From: Pseudoxanthomonas sp. X-1
Lineage (GTDB): Bacteria; Pseudomonadota; Gammaproteobacteria; Xanthomonadales; Xanthomonadaceae
Direction of reading: 5' to 3'
Assembly (NCBI RefSeq): GCF_020042665.1
Contig: NZ_CP083376.1
Coordinates: 248,001-312,000 of the forward strand
DNA length: 64,000 nucleotides
Part shown: piece by piece, positions 50,011-59,204 of the stretch
Layout: every line of letters starts with the position of its first letter
Position numbering within the stretch: position 1 is the stretch's first letter
Program-made: the position numbers and the translations under genes
Notes under the pieces: generated by a model
Seen by the model: the letters and a program-made list of their open reading frames with translations, nothing else
Told to the model about the DNA's origin: nothing
Database searches by the model: none

Positions 50011-50700
50011 ATGCGCGTGCTGATCGTCGAAGACGACGCGGCCATCGCCGAGGCCGTGGTGGCCGCGATGCGCCAGCAGGGGCACGCGGTGGATCACCTG
50101 GCCGATGGCGCCCGCGCCGACCTGGCGCTGCGCGACACCGAGTACCAGCTGCTGGTGCTGGACCTGGGCCTGCTGGGGCCGATGGACGGCGTGCAGGTGC
50201 TGCAACGCCTGCGTGCGCGGGCGGCGACCACCGCGGTGCTGGTGATCACCGCGCGCGAGGGCCTTGAGGATCGCGTGCAGGTGCTGGACCTGGGCGCCGA
50301 CGACTATCTGGTCAAGCCGTTCGCGCTGAAGGAGTTCGAGGCGCGGGTGCGCTCGCTGCTGCGGCGCATGGTCAGCCAGGGCGCGCCCGAACTGCGCCTG
50401 GGCCAGCTGCGGCTGGACCTGGCCGGGCACCGCGCCTGGATCGGCGAGGACGCCCTGGAGCTGACCGCGCGCGAATTCGGCCTGCTCGGCGCGCTGGCCA
50501 CGCGCACCGGCCGTGTCGCCAGCCGCGCGCAGCTGGTGGAGGTGCTGTGCGGCTGGGACGCGGACATCAGCGACAACGGCCTGGACATCGCCATGTACCG
50601 CCTGCGCCGCAAGCTGCAGGGCAGCGGCGTGGGCGTGCGCACCATCCGCGGCCTGGGTTACCTGCTGCAGGAGCAACAGGACGCGGGCGATGACGCCTAG
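50011..50700 (+). CDS. OmpR-family response regulator (TctD-like)
   Basis: A 229-residue response regulator. The receiver has acidic EDD (7-9), phospho-acceptor Asp51 (VLDLGLLG), Thr in VITARE and Lys in LVKPFAL; the C-terminal winged helix ends RTIRGLGYLL. It is followed 17 bases later by its histidine kinase. The ATG at 50011 has no ribosome site and sits after a long C-rich leader. Confidence 0.95.
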   Translation: MRVLIVEDDAAIAEAVVAAMRQQGHAVDHLADGARADLALRDTEYQLLVLDLGLLGPMDGVQVLQRLRARAATTAVLVITAREGLEDRVQVLDLGADDYLVKPFALKEFEARVRSLLRRMVSQGAPELRLGQLRLDLAGHRAWIGEDALELTAREFGLLGALATRTGRVASRAQLVEVLCGWDADISDNGLDIAMYRLRRKLQGSGVGVRTIRGLGYLLQEQQDAGDDA

Positions 50701-50717: not shown

Positions 50718-52142
50718 ATGGCAGGCCCTAGCCCGCATCCCAGCCTGCGCCGGCGGCTGGTGCTGTGGCTGGCGGTGCCGATGCTGGTGCTGCTGGCGCT
50801 GGACGCCGCGCTGACCTATCGCGTGGCGCTGCACTACGCCAACCGCGCGCACGACAGCAGCCTGGCCGACGACGCGGTCACCCTGGCCGAGCTGCTGCGG
50901 CGCGAGCCGCAGTCGCACGCGCTGTCCCAGCAGGCGCAGTTCCTGCTGCGCTACGACCCGAACGGGCCTAACTACTTCGCGGTGATCAGCCGTCGCCACG
51001 GCCTGCTCTACGGCGACAGCGGGCTCGGCAATACGCGGATGCCGGTGCCGGGGGCCAGGCCGGTGCTCTACAAGGGCTTCCACGACCAGCACCATCTGCG
51101 CATGGCGACCATCGGCCTGGCCTCGCCGTACGAGGCCGGCGACACGCTGGCCGTGACCGTGGCCGAGACCCTGCGCGAGCGCCACCGCAGCGCGCGCGAC
51201 GTCCTGCTGATGACCTTGCCGTTGCAGGCCGCCCTGATCGTGGTGGTGCTGATGCTGGTCTGGGTGGGCGTGGATCGCGGGCTTGGGCTGCTGACGCCGT
51301 TGACCCGGCGCCTGGCCGAGCGCGAACAGGCGCTGGCGCCGGTTACCGAGGCCGACGTGCCGCGCGAGATCCTGCCGCTGACGCGCGCGCTGGACGCGCT
51401 GTTCATGCGCGTGCGCGGGGCGATCGCGCTGCAGGAGCGCTTCATCACCGATGCCGCCCACCAGCTGCGCACGCCGCTGGCGGGCCTGCAGCTGCATGCC
51501 GAGCGGGCGATGGCGGCGCAGGACCCGGCGCAGCTGCAGCAGTCACTGGCGCACATCCTGGCGCAGACCGCGCGCGCGGCGCGCGCCTCCAACCAGCTGC
51601 TGGCGCTCAGTCGCGCGCAGGCCCCGCATCCGGGCGGAGAGACGCTGGAATCGCTGGCCCTGGACCGGCTGGTGCCGCACGCGGTGGCCGCGCGCGTGCC
51701 CGAGGCGCTCGATGCCGGCCTGGACCTGGGCTATCAGCCCCCGGAGGCGCCGGTACCGGCGATCGTCGGCGAAGCGCGCGGGGTCCAGGAGCTGCTCGAC
51801 AACCTGATCGACAACGCCCTGCGCTACGCCGGCGCGGGCCGCAGCATCACCGTCGGCGTCTGCGCCGGGCAGGCGTGGGTGATCCTCAGCGTGGAAGACG
51901 ACGGCCCGGGCGTGCCCGATGCGCTGCGCGCGCGGCTGGGCGAGCGCTTCTTCCGGGTGCCCGGCGCCGGTGGCGAGGGCACCGGGCTGGGGCTGGCCAT
52001 CGTGCAGGGCATCGCCAGCCGCCATCAGGCCGAGGTGGCGTTCCTGCGCGGCACGCAGGGCGGGCTGCGGGTGGAGGTGCGCTTCCCCGTGGCGCCGCGG
52101 CCGGACACGGCGACCGATCCGGTCAAGCACAACCCGGCGTAA
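50718..52142 (+). CDS. Sensor histidine kinase (TctE-like)
   Basis: A 474-residue kinase: helix 1 at about 13-34, a periplasmic 2CSK_N-like sensor (35-160), helix 2 at about 163-184, a HAMP-like linker, phospho-acceptor His248 in FITDAAHQLRTPLAGLQLHAE, and an ATPase domain with NLIDNALRYA, DDGPGVP and GTGLGLAIV. The AHQLRTPLAGL box is that of TctE/QseC-type kinases, which often sense tricarboxylates or similar metabolites. It forms a unit with the preceding regulator; its position before the esterase operon may mean it controls it. Confidence 0.94.
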   Translation: MAGPSPHPSLRRRLVLWLAVPMLVLLALDAALTYRVALHYANRAHDSSLADDAVTLAELLRREPQSHALSQQAQFLLRYDPNGPNYFAVISRRHGLLYGDSGLGNTRMPVPGARPVLYKGFHDQHHLRMATIGLASPYEAGDTLAVTVAETLRERHRSARDVLLMTLPLQAALIVVVLMLVWVGVDRGLGLLTPLTRRLAEREQALAPVTEADVPREILPLTRALDALFMRVRGAIALQERFITDAAHQLRTPLAGLQLHAERAMAAQDPAQLQQSLAHILAQTARAARASNQLLALSRAQAPHPGGETLESLALDRLVPHAVAARVPEALDAGLDLGYQPPEAPVPAIVGEARGVQELLDNLIDNALRYAGAGRSITVGVCAGQAWVILSVEDDGPGVPDALRARLGERFFRVPGAGGEGTGLGLAIVQGIASRHQAEVAFLRGTQGGLRVEVRFPVAPRPDTATDPVKHNPA

Positions 52143-52224: not shown

Positions 52225-53091
52225 GTGATCCGTTCAAGCGAATTCTTCTTCGAAGGGGGCCGCGACGGCGTTCTGCTGATCCACGGCCTGACCGGCACCC
52301 CGGCCGAGATGCGCCGGGTCGGCACCGGCCTGCACCGCGCCGGCTTCACCGTGCACGGGGTGCAGCTGGCCGGCCACTGCGGCGACCTGGACGACCTGCT
52401 GGCCACCGGCTGGCGCGACTGGTACGCCAGCGTCGAGCAGGCCGCCGACGCGCTGGCCCGGCGGGTGGACCGGGTGTTCGTGGCCGGGCTGTCGATGGGC
52501 GCGCTGCTGGCGCTGGAACTGGCCAGCCAGCGGCCGGAGCGGGTGGCGGGCGTCGGCGTGTACGGCGCGACCTTCGTCTACGACGGCTGGAACATCCCGT
52601 GGACGCGGCATCTGTCGTTCCTGCTGCCGCTGTTCAAGGCCACCGGCATCGGCCGCGACCGCATGTTCATGGAGGAACCGCCGTACGGGCTGCGCGACGA
52701 GCGCCTGCGCGCGCAGATCAGCGCGGCGATGCAGGGCGCGGACAGCAGCGTGGCCGGACTGCCCGGCAACCCGTGGCATTCGCTGGCCGAGCTGCGGGCG
52801 CTGGCCGCGCGCGTGCGCCGTCATCTGCCGCAGGTCACCGCGCCGTGCCTGGTGGCCCATGCCACGGAGGACGACGTGGCCAGCCTGCGCAATGCGCAGT
52901 GGGTGCTGGACGGGGTGTCGGGACCGACCGAATTCCTGTCGATGCATGACAGCTACCACATGCTGACCCTGGACCGGCAGCGACGCCTGCTGACCGATCG
53001 CACGGCGGCGTTCTTCCAGGGCATCGCCCAGCCGCACGCGGCGGTGCCGGTGGCCGCCGGCGTGCAGCGCCTGCACGAGGCGCTGGCATGA
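52225..53091 (+). CDS. Est30-like carboxylesterase/lipase
   Basis: A 288-residue alpha/beta hydrolase starting with GTG at 52225 (GAGGTGG upstream). Motifs: VLLIHGLTGTPAEMR (oxyanion), AGLSMGALLALELA (nucleophile serine), the acid in HATEDDVAS, and HDSYHMLTLD (catalytic histidine). The arrangement follows Geobacillus Est30 and monoacylglycerol lipases. It has no signal peptide. It opens the plus-strand unit of the 52-59 kb set, overlapping the next gene by 4 bases. Confidence 0.9.
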   Translation: MIRSSEFFFEGGRDGVLLIHGLTGTPAEMRRVGTGLHRAGFTVHGVQLAGHCGDLDDLLATGWRDWYASVEQAADALARRVDRVFVAGLSMGALLALELASQRPERVAGVGVYGATFVYDGWNIPWTRHLSFLLPLFKATGIGRDRMFMEEPPYGLRDERLRAQISAAMQGADSSVAGLPGNPWHSLAELRALAARVRRHLPQVTAPCLVAHATEDDVASLRNAQWVLDGVSGPTEFLSMHDSYHMLTLDRQRRLLTDRTAAFFQGIAQPHAAVPVAAGVQRLHEALA

Positions 53092-53450
53092 GCATGACGG
53101 TGGCCCTGCTGTGGCTGCTGACCGTGCTGGTGGATACCGGCGGCCAGTTGGCCTTCAAGGCCGCGGCGGTCGATGGCGGTGAGGCCGACGCCAACCTGGC
53201 GCGCTGGCGGCACCGGCTGGCGCGGCCGTGGCTGTGGCTGGGCATCGCCTGCTATGTAGTGGAGTTCCTGGCCTGGGCGGCGTTCCTGTCGCTGGTGCCG
53301 CTGTCGCGCGGCGTGCTGCTGGGCTCGGTCAACATCCTGGCGCTGATGCTGGCCGGGCGGCTGTTCTTCGGCGAGCGGCTGACGCCGCTGCGGGTGGCTG
53401 GCATGGGGCTGATCGGCCTGGGCGTGGCGGTGGTGGGAGTGGGCGGATGA
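53088..53450 (+). CDS. SMR/DMT-type small membrane protein A
   Basis: A 120-residue protein with four helices, the size and pattern of small multidrug resistance/ArnE-like halves: VALLWLLTVLVDTGGQLAFKAA at the start and LRVAGMGLIGLGVAVVGVGG at the end. It begins inside the esterase stop (ATGA) and ends inside the next start (ATGA). Together with protein B it could make a heterodimeric carrier, as ArnE-ArnF do for undecaprenyl phosphate-linked aminoarabinose. The substrate is unknown. Confidence 0.85.
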   Translation: MSMTVALLWLLTVLVDTGGQLAFKAAAVDGGEADANLARWRHRLARPWLWLGIACYVVEFLAWAAFLSLVPLSRGVLLGSVNILALMLAGRLFFGERLTPLRVAGMGLIGLGVAVVGVGG

Positions 53451-53845
53451 ACCGGCTGTACGTGTTCGGCTTTCCGCTGCTGATGGCGTTCGACACGCTG
53501 GCGCAGCTGTCCTTCAAGCTCGCCGGCGATCATGCGCTGCCGCTGGAATGGGGTCTGCCCTGGCTGCAGCGGCTGTTCGGCCAGCCGTGGATCTATGGCG
53601 CGATCGTGGGCTACATCGGCGCCTTCTTCACCTGGATGACGCTGCTGGAGCGCGCGCCGATCGGCCCGGCCTTCGCCGCCTCGCATCTGGAGGTGGTCAG
53701 CGTGCTGCTGGTGTCGGCTTGGCTGCTGGGCGAGCCGATCACCGCCGTGCATCTGGTGGGCGCGGCGCTGATCCTGGCGGGCGTGGCCTGCCTGGCGCGT
53801 GCCGAGACCCAGGTCGTCGAGACCGCCGGTGCTGCCGCGGCGTGA
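53447..53845 (+). CDS. SMR/DMT-type small membrane protein B
   Basis: A 132-residue four-helix protein (FGFPLLMAFDTLAQLSFKLAGDH; LVSAWLLGEPITAVHLVGAALILAGVACLAR). It is paired with protein A but not a close duplicate, which favours a heterodimer. The ending overlaps the aminotransferase start. In topology it matches the second half of split EamA/SMR transporters such as ArnF. Confidence 0.86.
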   Translation: MNRLYVFGFPLLMAFDTLAQLSFKLAGDHALPLEWGLPWLQRLFGQPWIYGAIVGYIGAFFTWMTLLERAPIGPAFAASHLEVVSVLLVSAWLLGEPITAVHLVGAALILAGVACLARAETQVVETAGAAAA

Positions 53846-55034
53846 GCTGCCGCCGACGGCGGGGCTGCCGCTGCGCTGGACCGACCTGCTGCCTGGCGAT
53901 GCCGGGCTGGAAGCGCGGCTGGCGCAGCTGTTCGGCCTGCCCGCGCCGCTGCTGACCTGCTCGGGCACCGCGGCGCTGGTGCTGTCGCTGCGTGCGCTGC
54001 GGCGGTTGGCGCCGACGCGTGATGAGGTCGTGGTGCCGGCCTACACCTGTCCGCTGGTGGCCATCGCGGTGCACGCCTGCGGGCTGCGCCTGCGCGTGTG
54101 CGAGCTGCGCGAGGCGTCGTTCGATCTCGACCCGGCCGCGCTGCGCGCCCTGTGCGGGTCGCGCACGCTGGCCGTGCTGCCCACCCACCTGGCCGGGCGC
54201 GTGGCCGACGTGGCCGATGCCGAACACGCGGCGCGGGCCTGTGGCGCCTGGGTGATCGAAGACGCGGCCCAGGCGCTGGGTGCGCGCGTGGACGGGCGCA
54301 GCGTCGGCCTGCGGGGCGACATCGGATTCTTCAGCCTGGCCGCGGGCAAGGGCCTGTCGCTGTACGAGGGCGGCCTGCTGGTCAGCGCCGATCCCGCGCT
54401 GCGTGCGTGCCTGGCCGAGGAAGCGGCGCGGGTGCCGTCGAATCTGGCCTGGGAGCTGCGCCGCAGCGCCGAGCTGCTGGGGCTGGCGCTGGCCTACCGG
54501 CCGCGCGCGCTGGCCCTGGCCTATGGCCTGCCGCTGCGGCGCGCGCTGGAGCGTGGCGATCCGGAGGCGGCGGTGGGAGATGTGTTCGGGCCGGACATTC
54601 CGCTGCACCGCGTCGGCGCCTGGCGGCGCATGGTCGGCGTGCATGCCAGCGGGCGGCTGCCGGCCTTCCTGCACGCCGCGCGCGATCGCGCCCTGGCCTG
54701 GAAGCGGACCCTCGAGGCCGTCCCCGGTGTGCAGGTCTACGACGACCGCCCCGGCGAGCGGGGCACCTGGCCGGTGCTGTGGCTGCGCCTGCCCGACCGC
54801 GCGCGACGCGACGCGGCGCTCGAACGGCTGTGGACCGCCGGCATGGGCGTGAGCCGCATGTTCATCCACGCCTTGCCGGATTACGCCTATCTGAGTGACT
54901 GCGTGCCGCAGGCCGAGGTGCCGCAGGCGCGCGCGTTGGCGGCATGCGGCCTGACCATCGGCAACGGCCCCTGGCTGGACGATGCCGCGCGTGCGCGCAT
55001 CCTGGACGTCCTGCGCCGCGGTACCGCGCCGTAG
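53829..55034 (+). CDS. DegT/DnrJ/EryC1-type aminotransferase
   Basis: A PLP-dependent enzyme of about 401 residues of the sugar-aminotransferase family: TCSGTAALVLSLRAL, VVPAYTCPLVAIAV, IEDAAQALGARVDG and the PLP-lysine region FFSLAAGKGLSLYEGGLL. Such enzymes aminate keto-sugars or related compounds. The GTG at 53829 is used (17-base overlap with protein B); a GTG at 53799 is in frame. It ends 17 bases before the converging arginase-like stop. The substrate is not evident. Confidence 0.88.
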   Translation: MLPRRELPPTAGLPLRWTDLLPGDAGLEARLAQLFGLPAPLLTCSGTAALVLSLRALRRLAPTRDEVVVPAYTCPLVAIAVHACGLRLRVCELREASFDLDPAALRALCGSRTLAVLPTHLAGRVADVADAEHAARACGAWVIEDAAQALGARVDGRSVGLRGDIGFFSLAAGKGLSLYEGGLLVSADPALRACLAEEAARVPSNLAWELRRSAELLGLALAYRPRALALAYGLPLRRALERGDPEAAVGDVFGPDIPLHRVGAWRRMVGVHASGRLPAFLHAARDRALAWKRTLEAVPGVQVYDDRPGERGTWPVLWLRLPDRARRDAALERLWTAGMGVSRMFIHALPDYAYLSDCVPQAEVPQARALAACGLTIGNGPWLDDAARARILDVLRRGTAP

Positions 55035-55051
55035 GCGGGCGGCCGCGCCGC

Positions 55052-55927
55052 TCAGGCGGCCGATGCGGCGGCGATCAGCGGCAGCAGCGCCTGGTTCAGC
55101 GCGTGCTGCCCGGCCTGCCAGCGCGGCAGGACCTCGGGATCGGGCGGCTGCTGGCCGTCCAGGGCGGAGAGCAGTCGCTTGAAGGGCTGGCGATAGCGAT
55201 GGTGCGAGATCTCGCCGGTGATGTCGCTGGCCACGATCAGCGCGCGCAGCTGCGCGATCAGACGCTGCGCATCGGCCAGCCTGAAGCGGCCCTGGTCCCA
55301 GTTGGTGCGCGCCACGTCCTCGGCGAACACGTCCTTGTCGATGGACAGGTACACCGGCAGCGCGGCGTCGGCGCGTGCGGCGAATGCGTCCAGCAGGCTG
55401 GCGCTGTCGGCGAAGCCGTGCACGGCATGGTCGCAGCCCAGCGCGCGCGCCCAGCGCGTGTCCACGTCCAGGCACCAGTAGTGCACGCGTCCGGCGCGCA
55501 GCGGGCCGAGCACGTTCTCCCAGCAGTGGCGCGTGCCGGCGTCGGCCGAGCACAGGCCGACCATGTGCACGCGCGCCACCTGCGGCAGCGCCGCCACGCG
55601 CCGCACCCACGATCCGCAGTGCACGCCGAAGGGATAGCGCATGTTGTCCGGATGGTTGTCCAGCACCACCACCTGCAGCGGGCCGCCATGCCGCGCCGCC
55701 GCCTGTCGCACCAGCGGCCAGGTCAGGTGGTGGAAATCGCCGCTGCCCAGCATCACCGTGCCGTGCGCGGTCTCCAGGGCCGGCCGCAGCTCGCGGGCCA
55801 GCCGTTCCAGCGTGGCCACGCCGCAGCCGAAGCGCACCGCGTCCTGCCAGTCGCGCAGCGGCAGCACGCGCGCGCCCGGCAGCGGCCCGACCGCGCCGTC
55901 CAGATCCAGCACCAGCGGCGCCTTCAT
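55052..55927 (-). CDS. Arginase/agmatinase-fold metallohydrolase
   Basis: A 291-residue protein keeping the ureohydrolase metal motifs in order: GSGDFHHL (61-68), DNHPD (90-94, the DxHxD ligand set) and SIDKDVF (195-201, the SxDxD ligand set), followed by WDQGRF. The rest is unlike arginase. It is the last gene of the minus-strand unit and overlaps the FemAB/GNAT-like gene by 4 bases. It may hydrolyse a guanidino or amide compound, or be a non-enzymatic relative. It stands in a cluster with two aminotransferases. Confidence 0.8.
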   Translation of the reverse strand: MKAPLVLDLDGAVGPLPGARVLPLRDWQDAVRFGCGVATLERLARELRPALETAHGTVMLGSGDFHHLTWPLVRQAAARHGGPLQVVVLDNHPDNMRYPFGVHCGSWVRRVAALPQVARVHMVGLCSADAGTRHCWENVLGPLRAGRVHYWCLDVDTRWARALGCDHAVHGFADSASLLDAFAARADAALPVYLSIDKDVFAEDVARTNWDQGRFRLADAQRLIAQLRALIVASDITGEISHHRYRQPFKRLLSALDGQQPPDPEVLPRWQAGQHALNQALLPLIAAASAA

Positions 55928-56988
55928 CCGGCCGCCTCGGCCTGCGGCACGGTGCCGGCCTCGTGTTCGAAGCGATGCGCGTGCCGGCGCAGCAGGCAGC
56001 GCAGCAGGGCATTGCGTGGATAGACCGCGTGCCGGGTAGGGGTGAGGCGCGCGCCGAGATAGCGCTTGATCTCCGGATCCGTCCAGCCGGCCACGTAGTG
56101 GCTCAGGCCGTGGCGGCGGGCATGGTCGAGATTGTGCATCCAGCTGACCGCGTACAGGTTGTGCTGGCGCGCCTGCGGATAGGCCAGGCCGATGTACTTG
56201 TCCACCAGCATGCCGGCGTGCTCGTAGCACAGGTTCCAGCCGATCAGCGCATCGTCGTGGTAATAGGCGAAGACCCGACCGCCGCTGCCGCCGTCGCGCA
56301 GCAGGCCGTCGAGGAAGGCCCGGTCGAGCTGGTCGAAGTGGATCTGGCTCTGCGCGTAGACGTTGAGGTACAGCGCGTAGTACGCCGCGCGCACGTCAGG
56401 ATCGTCGAAGCAGGCCGCCCCGGTGTGCAGGCATTCGATGCGCAGGTCGGCGCGCGCGCGCAGCTTGCGGCGGATGTCGCGGCGGCGGCCGGAGGACAGG
56501 CGCGCCAGATAGGCGTCCTCGTCGGCGAAATCGATCGGGACCCACGCCAGCTGCATGCCCTGCATCAGCACGAAGCCGCGTTCGGCCAGGGCCTGGGCGA
56601 AGGCCGCGGCGCGGCGGTTGCCGTGCAGGTCCAGCAGGGGCGAATCGTCCGGCAGGTCCTTGACGATCAGCAGCGGCGCGCGGCGCGCCTGCGCCAGCAC
56701 CTCGTCGGCCAGGGCGTCCAGGCTGCCGGTGAGCGGCAGCGGGGCGTATTCGGTGGCAGTGCAGCCGATGAAGCAGGCCGGCCACGCCAGCAGGCGGCGC
56801 CAGTGGCGATAGCCGGGCAGGCCGGTGACGCGCCGGCGCAGCGCATCGTCGGCGGTGGTCAGCAGGTCCAGGCGGGCGCGGAACAACGGCAGGCCGCTGG
56901 ACAGGCGTTCGGCCTGGAAACCAGGTGGCGGATGGGCCAGGAAGCTGTCGAGCAGGGCATCGGGCTCGAGCTGGGTGCAGGAGTGCAT
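55924..56988 (-). CDS. FemAB/GNAT-like acyltransferase
   Basis: A 354-residue cytosolic protein of the GNAT/FemAB (PF04339-like) type: LIVKDLPDDSPLLDLH, LSSGRRRDIRRKLRARADLRIE, and the acceptor-side motif VFAYYHDDALIGWNLCYEHAGMLVDKYIGL. These proteins join acyl or aminoacyl groups to amines or hydroxyls, some in lipid or cell-wall synthesis. ATGA overlap with the arginase-like gene; 51 bases after the class III aminotransferase. The first ATG at 56988 is used. Confidence 0.82.
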   Translation of the reverse strand: MHSCTQLEPDALLDSFLAHPPPGFQAERLSSGLPLFRARLDLLTTADDALRRRVTGLPGYRHWRRLLAWPACFIGCTATEYAPLPLTGSLDALADEVLAQARRAPLLIVKDLPDDSPLLDLHGNRRAAAFAQALAERGFVLMQGMQLAWVPIDFADEDAYLARLSSGRRRDIRRKLRARADLRIECLHTGAACFDDPDVRAAYYALYLNVYAQSQIHFDQLDRAFLDGLLRDGGSGGRVFAYYHDDALIGWNLCYEHAGMLVDKYIGLAYPQARQHNLYAVSWMHNLDHARRHGLSHYVAGWTDPEIKRYLGARLTPTRHAVYPRNALLRCLLRRHAHRFEHEAGTVPQAEAAG

Positions 56989-57039
56989 GGCGGCTCCGCG
57001 AAGCACCGGCCGCTGCAGGCGGCCGGTGCCGGTGGGGGA

Positions 57040-58446
57040 TCAGACGGTCTGCTTGGCCTTGGTCAGCGCCTGGTCGATCAGGGCGATGGCCAGGTCGATC
57101 TCCTCGTGGGTGATGTTCAGCGAGGGCGCCAGGGTGATGACGTTCTTGTACCAACCGCCCACGTCCAGGACCAGGCCGATCGGCTTGCCCTTGTGCGTGA
57201 GCTCGCCGCCCAGGCCGATGTCCACCATCCGGTCCAGCAGCGCCTTGTTGGGCGTGAAGCCATCGGCCTCGCAGATCTCCGCGCGCAGCGCCAGGCCCAG
57301 GCCGTCGACATCGCCGATCTCCTTGTGGCGCTTCTGCAGTTCGCGCAGGCCTTCGAGGAAGTGCGCGCCCTTCTCCGGCACGGTGCGCTCGTAGTCCATC
57401 TCGTAGCCCATGCGGATCACTTCCAGCCCCAGCGAGGTGCCCAGCGGGTTGGAGTTGAACGTGGAATGGGTCGAACCCGGCGGGAAGATGGTCGGGTTGA
57501 TCAGCTCCTCGCGCGCCCACAGGCCGGACAGCGGGTTCAGGCCGTTGGTCAGCGCCTTGCCGAACACCAGCACGTCCGGGGTCACGCCGAAGTGCTCGAT
57601 CGACCACAGCTTGCCGGTGCGCCAGAAGCCCATCTGGATCTCGTCGACCACCATCAGGATGCCGTACTGGTCCAGCACCTTCTTCAGGTCGCGGAAGAAG
57701 TTCGGCGGCGGGATCACGTAGCCGCCGGTGCCCTGGATCGGCTCGACGTAGAAGGCCGCGTATTCGGCCTGGCCGACCTTGGGGTCCCACACGCCGTTGT
57801 ATTCGGTCTCGAACAGGCGCGCGAACTGGCGCACGCAGTGGTCCGAATACTCCTCCGGGCTCATGCCCTTGGGCCGGCGGAAGGGATAGGGGAAGGGGAT
57901 GAACATCGCGCGCTCGCCGAAGTGGCCGAAGCGGCGGCGATAGCGGTAGCTGGAGGTGATGCTGGAGGCGCCCAGGGTGCGGCCGTGGTAGCCGCCCTCG
58001 AAGGCGAACATCAGGCTCTTGCCGTTCTTGTAGTTGCGCACCAGCTTGAGCGAGTCCTCGATGGCCTGCGCGCCGCCGACGTTGAAGTGCACGCGGCCGG
58101 GCAGGCCGAACTTGCCTTCCACGTCCTGGGCGATGGTCTTGGCCAGCTGGATGCGGGTGGGGTGCAGGTACTGGCTGGCGACCTGCGGCAGGGTGTCGAT
58201 CTGGTGCTTGAGCGCGTCGTTGAGGCGCTTGTTGGAATAGCCGAAGTTGCAGGCCGAGTACCACATCTGCAGGTCCAGATACGGCGTTTCGCCACTGTCG
58301 AACATGTAGCTGCCTTCGCAGCGATGGAACACCTTGGGCGGATCGACGTAGTGCACGGTGTCGCCGAAGGAGCTGTAGCGGGCCTCGTCGGCCAGCAGCT
58401 GGGCGTCGTCCTCGATCGCCGGGGCGAGGGTATGGAGCAGGTTCAT
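57040..58446 (-). CDS. Class III (omega) aminotransferase
   Basis: A 468-residue PLP enzyme of the 4-aminobutyrate/ornithine aminotransferase group: NFGYSNKRLNDALKHQ, FNVGGAQAIEDSLKLVRNYKN, EPIQGTGGYVIPP, VVDEIQMGFWRTGKLW (Asp268) and LVFGKALTNGLNPLSG (PLP Lys297), with NPLGTSLGLEVI. Such enzymes move amino groups between omega-amino compounds and keto acids; the exact substrate cannot be told. It lies between the HAD phosphatase and the FemAB/GNAT-like gene on one strand. Confidence 0.93.
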   Translation of the reverse strand: MNLLHTLAPAIEDDAQLLADEARYSSFGDTVHYVDPPKVFHRCEGSYMFDSGETPYLDLQMWYSACNFGYSNKRLNDALKHQIDTLPQVASQYLHPTRIQLAKTIAQDVEGKFGLPGRVHFNVGGAQAIEDSLKLVRNYKNGKSLMFAFEGGYHGRTLGASSITSSYRYRRRFGHFGERAMFIPFPYPFRRPKGMSPEEYSDHCVRQFARLFETEYNGVWDPKVGQAEYAAFYVEPIQGTGGYVIPPPNFFRDLKKVLDQYGILMVVDEIQMGFWRTGKLWSIEHFGVTPDVLVFGKALTNGLNPLSGLWAREELINPTIFPPGSTHSTFNSNPLGTSLGLEVIRMGYEMDYERTVPEKGAHFLEGLRELQKRHKEIGDVDGLGLALRAEICEADGFTPNKALLDRMVDIGLGGELTHKGKPIGLVLDVGGWYKNVITLAPSLNITHEEIDLAIALIDQALTKAKQTV

Positions 58447-58484
58447 TGGCAGTGTCCGTTCGCAGCAGGAGGGGAGCCGCCGCA

Positions 58485-59204
58485 TCAGGCGATGGCGGCA
58501 GCGGGGGAGAGGGCGGGGGCGTGGCGGGTCAGTTCGCCCGATTCGAGCGCGGGCAGCAGCGCCAGCGCCTCGGCGAAGCCTTCGATGGCGCTGTGTGGCA
58601 GCGCGTGGTCGCGGCAATGGGCGATCAGCTTGCGCTTGGCGAACACGTAGTCGGCGCGGCCGGCCACGCAGAAATCCGAGGTGCCGTCGCCGACCAGCAG
58701 CACCTGCCCGTTCGGCGTCTGCCGGCGCGCCTGCGCGGCGCGCGCGCACTTGCAGGTGCCGGCGCCGCAGCTGGGCGCCTGATGCGGCGAGTCCAGGTTC
58801 CAGCGGCGTTCGCCGACCGGATGGAAGCGGTTGGCGTACAGCGGCAGCGGTGACACGCCTTCGCGCGCCAGCAGCAGGCGGATCGGCAGATCCAGGCCGT
58901 CGCTGACGATCTCCAGCGGCCAGCCGCGCGCGGCCACCGCCGCGGCGAAGGCCGGGAAGGCCGGATCGATGTCCAGGTCCGACAGGTGCTGCTCGAACTG
59001 GGCCGCGTCCATGTCCAGCAGGCCGACCTGGCCGCGCATGCAGGCGCGCGAGCCGATGCGGCCGGCCAGCCAGTCGTCTTCCAGCGCTTCCCAGCCGGGA
59101 CGGCCGAAGCGCTGCAGCAGGGTGTCGATGGTGTCGCGCAGTCCGATGGTGCCGTCGAAATCGCACAGCACGGTCCAGCGCAGGGGGACGGAACGAAGAG
59201 ACAT
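58485..59204 (-). CDS. HAD-IB family phosphatase (MtnX-like)
   Basis: A 239-residue phosphatase: catalytic CDFDGTIGLRDT (Asp15, Asp17), ten-residue spacing typical of HAD-IB, VSDGLDLPIRLLL (Thr/Ser position) and VLLVGDGTSDFCVA (Asp pair). It resembles MtnX and phosphoserine phosphatase-like enzymes. It heads the minus-strand unit; 38 bases separate it from the aminotransferase. A C-rich cluster (CGAGTCKCARA) in the middle may bind a metal. Confidence 0.92.
   Translation of the reverse strand: MSLRSVPLRWTVLCDFDGTIGLRDTIDTLLQRFGRPGWEALEDDWLAGRIGSRACMRGQVGLLDMDAAQFEQHLSDLDIDPAFPAFAAAVAARGWPLEIVSDGLDLPIRLLLAREGVSPLPLYANRFHPVGERRWNLDSPHQAPSCGAGTCKCARAAQARRQTPNGQVLLVGDGTSDFCVAGRADYVFAKRKLIAHCRDHALPHSAIEGFAEALALLPALESGELTRHAPALSPAAAIA

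Follow-up and report, generated by a model that had tools for sequence, protein, structure and literature searches.

Which product do the eight convergent genes at positions 52225-59204 of a Pseudoxanthomonas genome segment make, and do they make it together? The segment, hereafter the window, is a stretch of 64,000 nucleotides (bases 248001-312000 of the 4.52 Mb, single-contig genome of Pseudoxanthomonas sp. X-1). A first-pass annotation had proposed that the eight genes serve one pathway, for the assembly and flipping or export of a small molecule or lipid head group, and had recognised no described pathway with this combination. Our analysis very strongly favours a single pathway: in related and distant genomes alike the genes stay together, in several gene orders and strand arrangements. 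The strongest mechanistic clue is the pairing of a double-GNAT transferase (FEM) with a divergent ureohydrolase-fold protein (ARG). The locus is a widely conserved combination of known enzyme folds for which we found no description; neither the gene combination nor the pairing of an aminoacyl-tRNA transferase with an arginase was found in the open-licence literature, outside which most subscription journals lie, and polar-lipid descriptions held no usable aminolipid records. The eight open reading frames (ORFs), all intact and in frame in an ORF check of the window, are as follows.

EST, 52225-53091, plus strand: alpha/beta hydrolase of 288 amino acids with a GTG start (Pfam Hydrolase_4)
SMR1, 53088-53450, plus strand: small EamA/SMR-type membrane protein, first of a pair (Pfam EamA)
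SMR2, 53447-53845, plus strand: second of the SMR pair (Pfam EamA)
DEGT, 53829-55034, plus strand: aminotransferase-family protein with a GTG start (Pfam DegT_DnrJ_EryC1)
ARG, 55052-55927, minus strand: divergent ureohydrolase-fold protein (Pfam Arginase PF00491, 44 bits against a cut-off of 22)
FEM, 55924-56988, minus strand: double-GNAT protein (Pfam FemAB_like, 40 bits against a cut-off of 27)
AT3, 57040-58446, minus strand: class III aminotransferase (Pfam Aminotran_3)
HAD, 58485-59204, minus strand: HAD-IB phosphatase (Pfam HAD)

Conserved linkage of the eight genes

The ORF coordinates bear out the two packed, convergent units of the first-pass annotation. EST, SMR1, SMR2 and DEGT overlap successively by 4, 4 and 17 bases and converge, with 17 bases between, on a minus-strand unit in which ARG and FEM overlap by 4 bases and gaps of 51 and 38 bases separate FEM from AT3 and AT3 from HAD. 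The families that it had named also hold for all eight proteins at the level of Pfam, except that FEM is by structure closest to aminoacyl-tRNA-dependent and not to acyl-CoA-dependent enzymes. Its inventory of the eight genes stands as well, but it had overlooked this fold type together with a two-component system, an acyl carrier protein (ACP) and ketosynthase (KS) pair and an exporter.

Alignment of ARG alone gave at least 534 relatives, of which we fetched the 80 best loci, a sampling that favours the best ARG matches. At E<=1e-4, tblastn detected FEM in all 80 loci, SMR1, SMR2 and DEGT in 66 each, EST in 62, AT3 in 56 and HAD in 51; at 1e-12 AT3 was retained in 55, the one dropped being a 21% match. 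All eight genes occur together in 39/80 loci, and in 34 of the 63 loci that exceed 20 kb. Because many of the loci come from Rhodanobacter or Dyella these counts are not independent, and we also counted by 23 groups, which are hand-made labels from record titles: FEM and ARG occur in 23 of them, the SMR pair and DEGT in 22, AT3 in 21 and EST and HAD in 19. FEM adjoins ARG on the same strand in 80/80 loci, and SMR1 and SMR2 are neighbours in 66. For control we counted the ORF families that lie clear of the module and partner queries; the most frequent of them reached 25/80 loci, a figure obtained by ORF clustering and not by tblastn as for the module genes. A similar ORF comparison, slightly less strict, gave relatives of individual module ORFs from example loci in about 49-78 of the other loci. 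We take this control family to be a MipA/OmpV-like outer membrane protein (an example is L070:5916-6680, L and G numbers being our labels for loci and genomes). A look-alike of this protein lies beside the exporter at L157:3843-4640 and had no NCBIfam match at E<=1e-15.

Gene order varies across these loci. The arrangement of the window, HAD-AT3-FEM-ARG converging on DEGT-SMR2-SMR1-EST, recurs in L039, L040 and L043 and, without DEGT, in L041 and L042, and many Rhodanobacteraceae have ACP-KS, in either direction, between AT3 and FEM. HAD stands on the EST side in L093, L099, L111 and L112, EST stands beside FEM-ARG in L066, L092 and L118, and L195, from a genome of the window's family, is one co-directional run, HK-EST-SMR1-SMR2-DEGT-HAD-AT3-FEM-ARG, HK being a sensor kinase described below. 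For the 25 loci without an AT3 orthologue we searched 16 genomes and found AT3 elsewhere in 16/16, with HAD beside it in every case and an outer-membrane-factor gene in 15/16. For the 14 loci lacking DEGT, 12 genomes and that of L056 were searched; DEGT was present in 11/13, and EST, SMR1 and SMR2 lay alongside it in 11/11. At L054:10824-18769 (Alcaligenaceae SAGV5), ARG and DEGT are parted by two ATP-grasp genes of the cyanophycin-synthetase-like kind together with an ABC transporter/DUF1854 pair; L058, L096 and L108 have an ARG-DEGT gap of similar size, L054 being the one annotated. A general link to cyanophycin was rejected, as ARG and DEGT are much closer together in most other loci.

The module is present in at least Lysobacterales and Burkholderiales. 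AT3 orthologues reach further into the Pseudomonadota and were found in 3/274 genomes of the class (E<=1e-150) and in 25/398 of the phylum and 40/200 of the order (both E<=1e-130), the three samples overlapping. In the genus, 2/38 genomes carry an orthologue (99-100% identity), the next best match being at E 1.5e-53 and 35%; this patchy occurrence suggests gain or loss. The ARG of the window shares 94% identity with its counterpart in Pseudoxanthomonas winnipegensis NML 130738, which places the host in or close to that species. A recent island by base composition was rejected, the G+C content of the cluster (71.6%) being close to that of the window (71.4%).

The FEM-ARG pair

FEM co-varies with ARG. 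In 22 genomes chosen for spread, 4.6-19.5 kb around AT3 were read, and ARG was profiled over 22 genomes, namely 21 of those read and G484 (G531 was excluded). ARG was present in 12; for 11 of these the stretch read contains FEM (the contig of G529, the twelfth, ends just beyond EST). Among the 10 ARG-negative genomes, no FEM was found near AT3 in the 9 that were read, stretches around AT3 being what was covered, and both FEM and ARG are absent from the smaller modules read. Three loci, L185, L186 and L191, combine FEM, ARG and the SMR pair and show no DEGT within the stretch, and G870 (L218) has the order ARG-SMR1-EST-FEM-SMR2. L189 holds an AT3 relative of just 57%, and none of the other seven genes was detected in its stretch. 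There the AT3 relative is followed, ends overlapping, by a gene that we take to be sulfotransferase-like (L189:9412-11732). A single TGA stop lies inside the match in L125 (AT3 of G153) and in L206 (ARG of G774).

The predicted double-GNAT fold of FEM has as its closest solved folds the aminoacyl-tRNA-dependent transferases Sbb17, MprF and FemX; such enzymes stand at the top of the fold list, followed by a gap and then the coenzyme A (CoA) group. A predicted basic helix, residues 166-181, with invariant R168, R169, R174 and K175, would be compatible with aminoacyl-tRNA as the donor. K308 of FEM, a candidate counterpart of Lys305 in FemX (4ii9), is invariant too. The sequence-level tie of FEM is to Pfam FemAB_like alone, at 40 bits. 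On the modelled fold, FEM probably takes aminoacyl-tRNA as its donor.

ARG has the arginase fold, and Arginase PF00491 was the sole Pfam model that matched it at E<=0.1. The six binuclear metal ligands, sought as His, DxHxD and SxDxD, are H66, D90, H92, D94, D197 and D199, each kept in 80/80 loci by motif alignment. However, ARG does not reach the score of a conventional arginase or agmatinase (24.1 bits against 174.3 for the NCBIfam agmatinase model).

The catalytic positions of the other enzymes are likewise intact. The DxDGT aspartates of HAD are unchanged in 49/49 aligned relatives; the GxSxG serine, candidate Asp and candidate His of EST are each present in 62/62 sequences; and the lysine position for pyridoxal phosphate is kept in 54/54 aligned relatives of AT3 and 65/65 of DEGT. 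AT3 is the most conserved member, with orthologue identities of 75-99% in the 80 loci and 57-88% in the phylum sample. SMR1 and SMR2 are adjacent, co-directional SMR-type genes whose central residue is Asp in 66/66 and 65/65 sequences, respectively, and their products are predicted to form a heterodimer. Among the NCBIfam matches listed (for AT3 the best 25 of 69), no equivalog reached its cut-off for any of the eight proteins; the sole cut-off reached was that of the broad HAD-IB subfamily, by HAD (56.3 bits against 45). HAD scored just under the cut-off of an MtnX-like subfamily model (79.6 against 81.55 bits) and did not reach that of the MtnX equivalog (77.9 against 303.2). Anti-phage defence was rejected, since PADLOC-DB at E<=0.001 gave 0 families for each of the eight proteins, and so was an exosortase-type cluster, as EST scored just 22 bits against the NCBIfam hydrolase 2 model (cut-off 202.75).

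Associated genes

Two regulatory genes precede the plus unit.

RR, 50011-50700, plus strand: OmpR-family response regulator, closest in NCBIfam to PmrA (203 bits against a cut-off of 330)
HK, 50718-52142, plus strand: sensor histidine kinase, closest in NCBIfam to QseC (181 bits against a cut-off of 475)

Both are co-directional with the plus unit, with gaps of 17 bases between RR and HK and 82 bases between HK and EST, and because they abut it in this way the plus unit may be a six-gene unit. Relatives of RR lie in 29/80 loci and of HK in 31/80 (tblastn 1e-12, fetched stretch), and HK is directly beside EST in 6.

A pair of ACP and FabF-like KS genes accompanies the module in 62/80 loci. In the genome of the window the KS gene is at about 2.790 Mb, with 67% identity to the Frateuria KS, and the small ORF before it matches ACP (53% over 70 residues); the neighbours of this pair (L122:8133-10623, near 2.789-2.792 Mb) are presumably CDP-alcohol phosphatidyltransferase- and PhaE/PhaC-like. 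The KS, ARG and AT3 orthologues share the same 2/38 genomes of the genus, and as these two are close relatives the co-occurrence is one event and not 38 independent tests. A cyclopropane fatty acid synthase gene lies directly after ARG in four loci (L099, L111, L112 and L116).

Flipping or export, as first suggested, gains support from the SMR pair (66/80 loci) and from exporter genes near many modules: a membrane fusion protein (MFP) in 36 of the 80 loci, an FtsX permease in 34, an outer membrane factor in 35 and an ATP-binding cassette (ABC) subunit in 11, the last being probably an undercount, as query ORFs that overlap competed with one another. One exporter ATPase is LolD/DevA/MacB-like.

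Proposed pathway

For the locus we propose a single pathway of biosynthesis and export, directed to the envelope, and to the whole order of steps given here we assign an even chance. AT3 as a transaminase, HAD as a phosphatase and EST as an esterase or thioesterase would build a small amine scaffold or set it free; these three form the most widely shared part and presumably make the amine, and since the conservation of AT3 far exceeds that of the other genes it may have one fixed substrate. In many hosts, including that of the window with its genes at 2.79 Mb, the dedicated ACP and ketosynthase would add an acyl or beta-keto chain. FEM, with the double-GNAT fold of MprF, FemX and Sbb17, would pass an amino acid from aminoacyl-tRNA to the amine, and ARG, as its partner, would act on the conjugate. 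In the simplest form FEM would add arginine, which ARG would turn into ornithine and urea; we put forward this version because, to our knowledge, no standard tRNA carries ornithine, and the arginyl-to-ornithyl step itself we consider possible but unlikely. ARG might equally cleave another guanidino, formimidoyl or amide bond. In most members from Xanthomonadales and Burkholderiales a further amine would come from DEGT. Passage of the cationic product through the inner membrane would fall to the SMR heterodimer, with its acidic central residue kept, and the DevBCA/MacAB-like ABC exporter, where present, would take the product outward. The PmrA/QseC-like two-component system may control the plus unit.

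The ACP, the KS and the cyclopropane synthase neighbour suggest that an acyl chain is involved in many hosts, which makes an exported cationic amphiphile our best guess at the product class, and we lean slightly towards a product of this kind, exported or held in the envelope. In its most specific form the proposal is a pathway of Pseudomonadota that would install ornithine without an ornithyl donor: arginine from Arg-tRNA would be placed by FEM on a transaminase-made amine, often on an ACP-derived chain, and deguanidinated in place by the dedicated ureohydrolase, and the cationic product would be flipped by the SMR pair and exported to the outer envelope. This full version we consider doubtful.

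Several observations weigh against the proposal. Of the eight genes, L156, L181-L184, L190 and L200 show EST, HAD and AT3 alone in the stretch read, accompanied by KS in L183, L184, L190 and L200, and L155 adds to this core only the SMR pair, besides carrying exporter genes and a regulator pair; because the core occurs without the other genes, the tailoring steps are not obligatory. In the Xanthomonas genomes of X. vasicola and X. prunicola, DEGT was not matched at E<=1e-60. For the 18 loci without KS, 16 genomes were searched at E<=1e-100 and KS was found in just 2; it was not found in the other 14, which include the Xanthomonas and Burkholderiales ones tried. ACP/KS as an obligatory core was rejected on this count, though the pair is linked in 62/80 and in some distant loci. 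A FEM profile of 29 sequences gave 0 matches against the PDB at E<=5, and since there is no sequence-level match to any solved aminoacyl-tRNA enzyme, the case for tRNA use rests on the fold. In ARG, the first ligand motif was unmatched by the search pattern in the distant L186 and L191; the DP of the arginase motif SxDxDxxDP is missing after SxDxD, where TNWDQG takes the place of the usual loop; and the residue that we equate, without superposition, with the guanidinium-binding Glu of arginases is Glu in 75/80 and Asp in 5/80. Because of this Glu/Asp variation and the TNWDQG loop, the substrate of ARG may not be arginyl. Lastly, the nearest NCBIfam models of the SMR pair include the glycolipid flippases ArnE and ArnF, though far under cut-off (24.2 and 24.7 bits against 92 for ArnE; 23.0 and 23.6 against 99 for ArnF).

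Alternative explanations

In the alternative that survives best, FEM would be an N-acyltransferase that joins a KS-made, ACP-bound chain to the AT3-derived amine, yielding an N-acyl aminolipid, and ARG would be an amidase- or deformylase-like hydrolase. Against this, aminoacyl-tRNA enzymes head the FEM fold list with a gap before the CoA group, and the Xanthomonas and Burkholderiales genomes tried retain FEM without this KS; we regard the acyl route as possible but unlikely.

Less plausible is an arn-type modification of lipid A or a carrier, in which an amino sugar, borne by a nucleotide or a carrier, would be made by DEGT and flipped by the SMR pair, and the PmrA-like regulator would mediate a polymyxin response. 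That PmrA is the model nearest to RR, that ArnE and ArnF are among those nearest to the SMR pair and that DEGT is nearest to nucleotide-sugar transaminases in NCBIfam all speak for it, but every one of these matches is far under cut-off. The central SMR residue is moreover acidic, whereas that of lipid SMRs is often Asn, as far as the accessible part of PMC9574504 goes. No glycosyltransferase, ArnA-, ArnC- or ArnT-like gene was found among the eight genes and the annotated neighbours (other neighbours are unannotated, and no genome-wide arn search was made), and altogether we judge an arn-type role improbable.

A catabolic or salvage role, in which a polyamine or guanidino compound would be degraded by the class III aminotransferase and the arginase-fold hydrolase and excess amine would leave through the SMR pair, would suit the naming of some AT3 relatives as GABA (gamma-aminobutyrate)/5-aminovalerate aminotransferase by the Joint Genome Institute (JGI) and the fact that many ureohydrolases are catabolic. 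The FEM transferase, ACP/KS and the outer-membrane exporter do not suit it, however, and no aldehyde dehydrogenase or uptake system was recognised among those neighbours that are annotated, which makes degradation very unlikely. Equally hard to sustain are two independent converging operons with separate jobs, EST-SMR-SMR-DEGT and HAD-AT3-FEM-ARG: the units do lie apart in some genomes of Luteibacter and Dyella, but in the loci named above HAD is found with the EST block or EST with FEM-ARG, L195 has one co-directional run, and separated blocks are still present in the genomes tried.

Comparison with known systems

The proposed pathway resembles MprF, in which a transferase and a flippase are fused in one protein. 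Aminoacyl transfer plus a transporter would be common to both, and the fold of FEM is akin to that of MprF (about 10% identity in the fold alignment); however, MprF has no set with transaminases, a phosphatase and a ureohydrolase, and the transporter here is a split SMR pair. FemX-type natural-product enzymes (Sbb17/Sba18, Orf11, VlmA and DhpH) are also akin to FEM by fold and not tied to it by sequence; their partners differ, and in the accessible parts of their descriptions none is paired with a ureohydrolase.

The closest parallel to an arginase acting on conjugated arginine is offered by the peptide arginases OspR and PbsE, which, in the parts of the reports available, convert arginine to ornithine in ribosomally synthesized and post-translationally modified peptides (RiPPs), the OspR type keeping its metal ligands in altered motifs (PMC10028609, PMC12257519). 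Their substrates are ribosomal peptides, whereas no precursor peptide was noticed here, where no systematic search for one was made, and OspR is discussed, in the part available, under pfam12640 (PMC10028609), whereas ARG falls under Pfam Arginase PF00491. PMC2922099, in the part available, also mentions arginase as supplying ornithine near another system, one based on a tRNA synthetase.

On the transport side, the two adjacent small EamA/SMR genes recall ArnE/ArnF, from which they differ in scores far below cut-off, in the acidic central residue and in having no arn genes among the annotated neighbours. The MFP, the DevA/LolD/MacB-like ATPase, the FtsX permease and the NodT-type outer membrane factor that many loci have close to the module recall DevBCA/MacAB-TolC, but such exporter genes are not in the cluster of the window (the rest of its genome was not searched). 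Set beside these systems, the locus would stand out, as a system for a natural product or for envelope modification, by the unusual pairing of an aminoacyl-tRNA-type transferase with a ureohydrolase, and, if its product is an envelope amine, it would bear on surface charge and on sensitivity to antimicrobial peptides in soil- and plant-associated bacteria.

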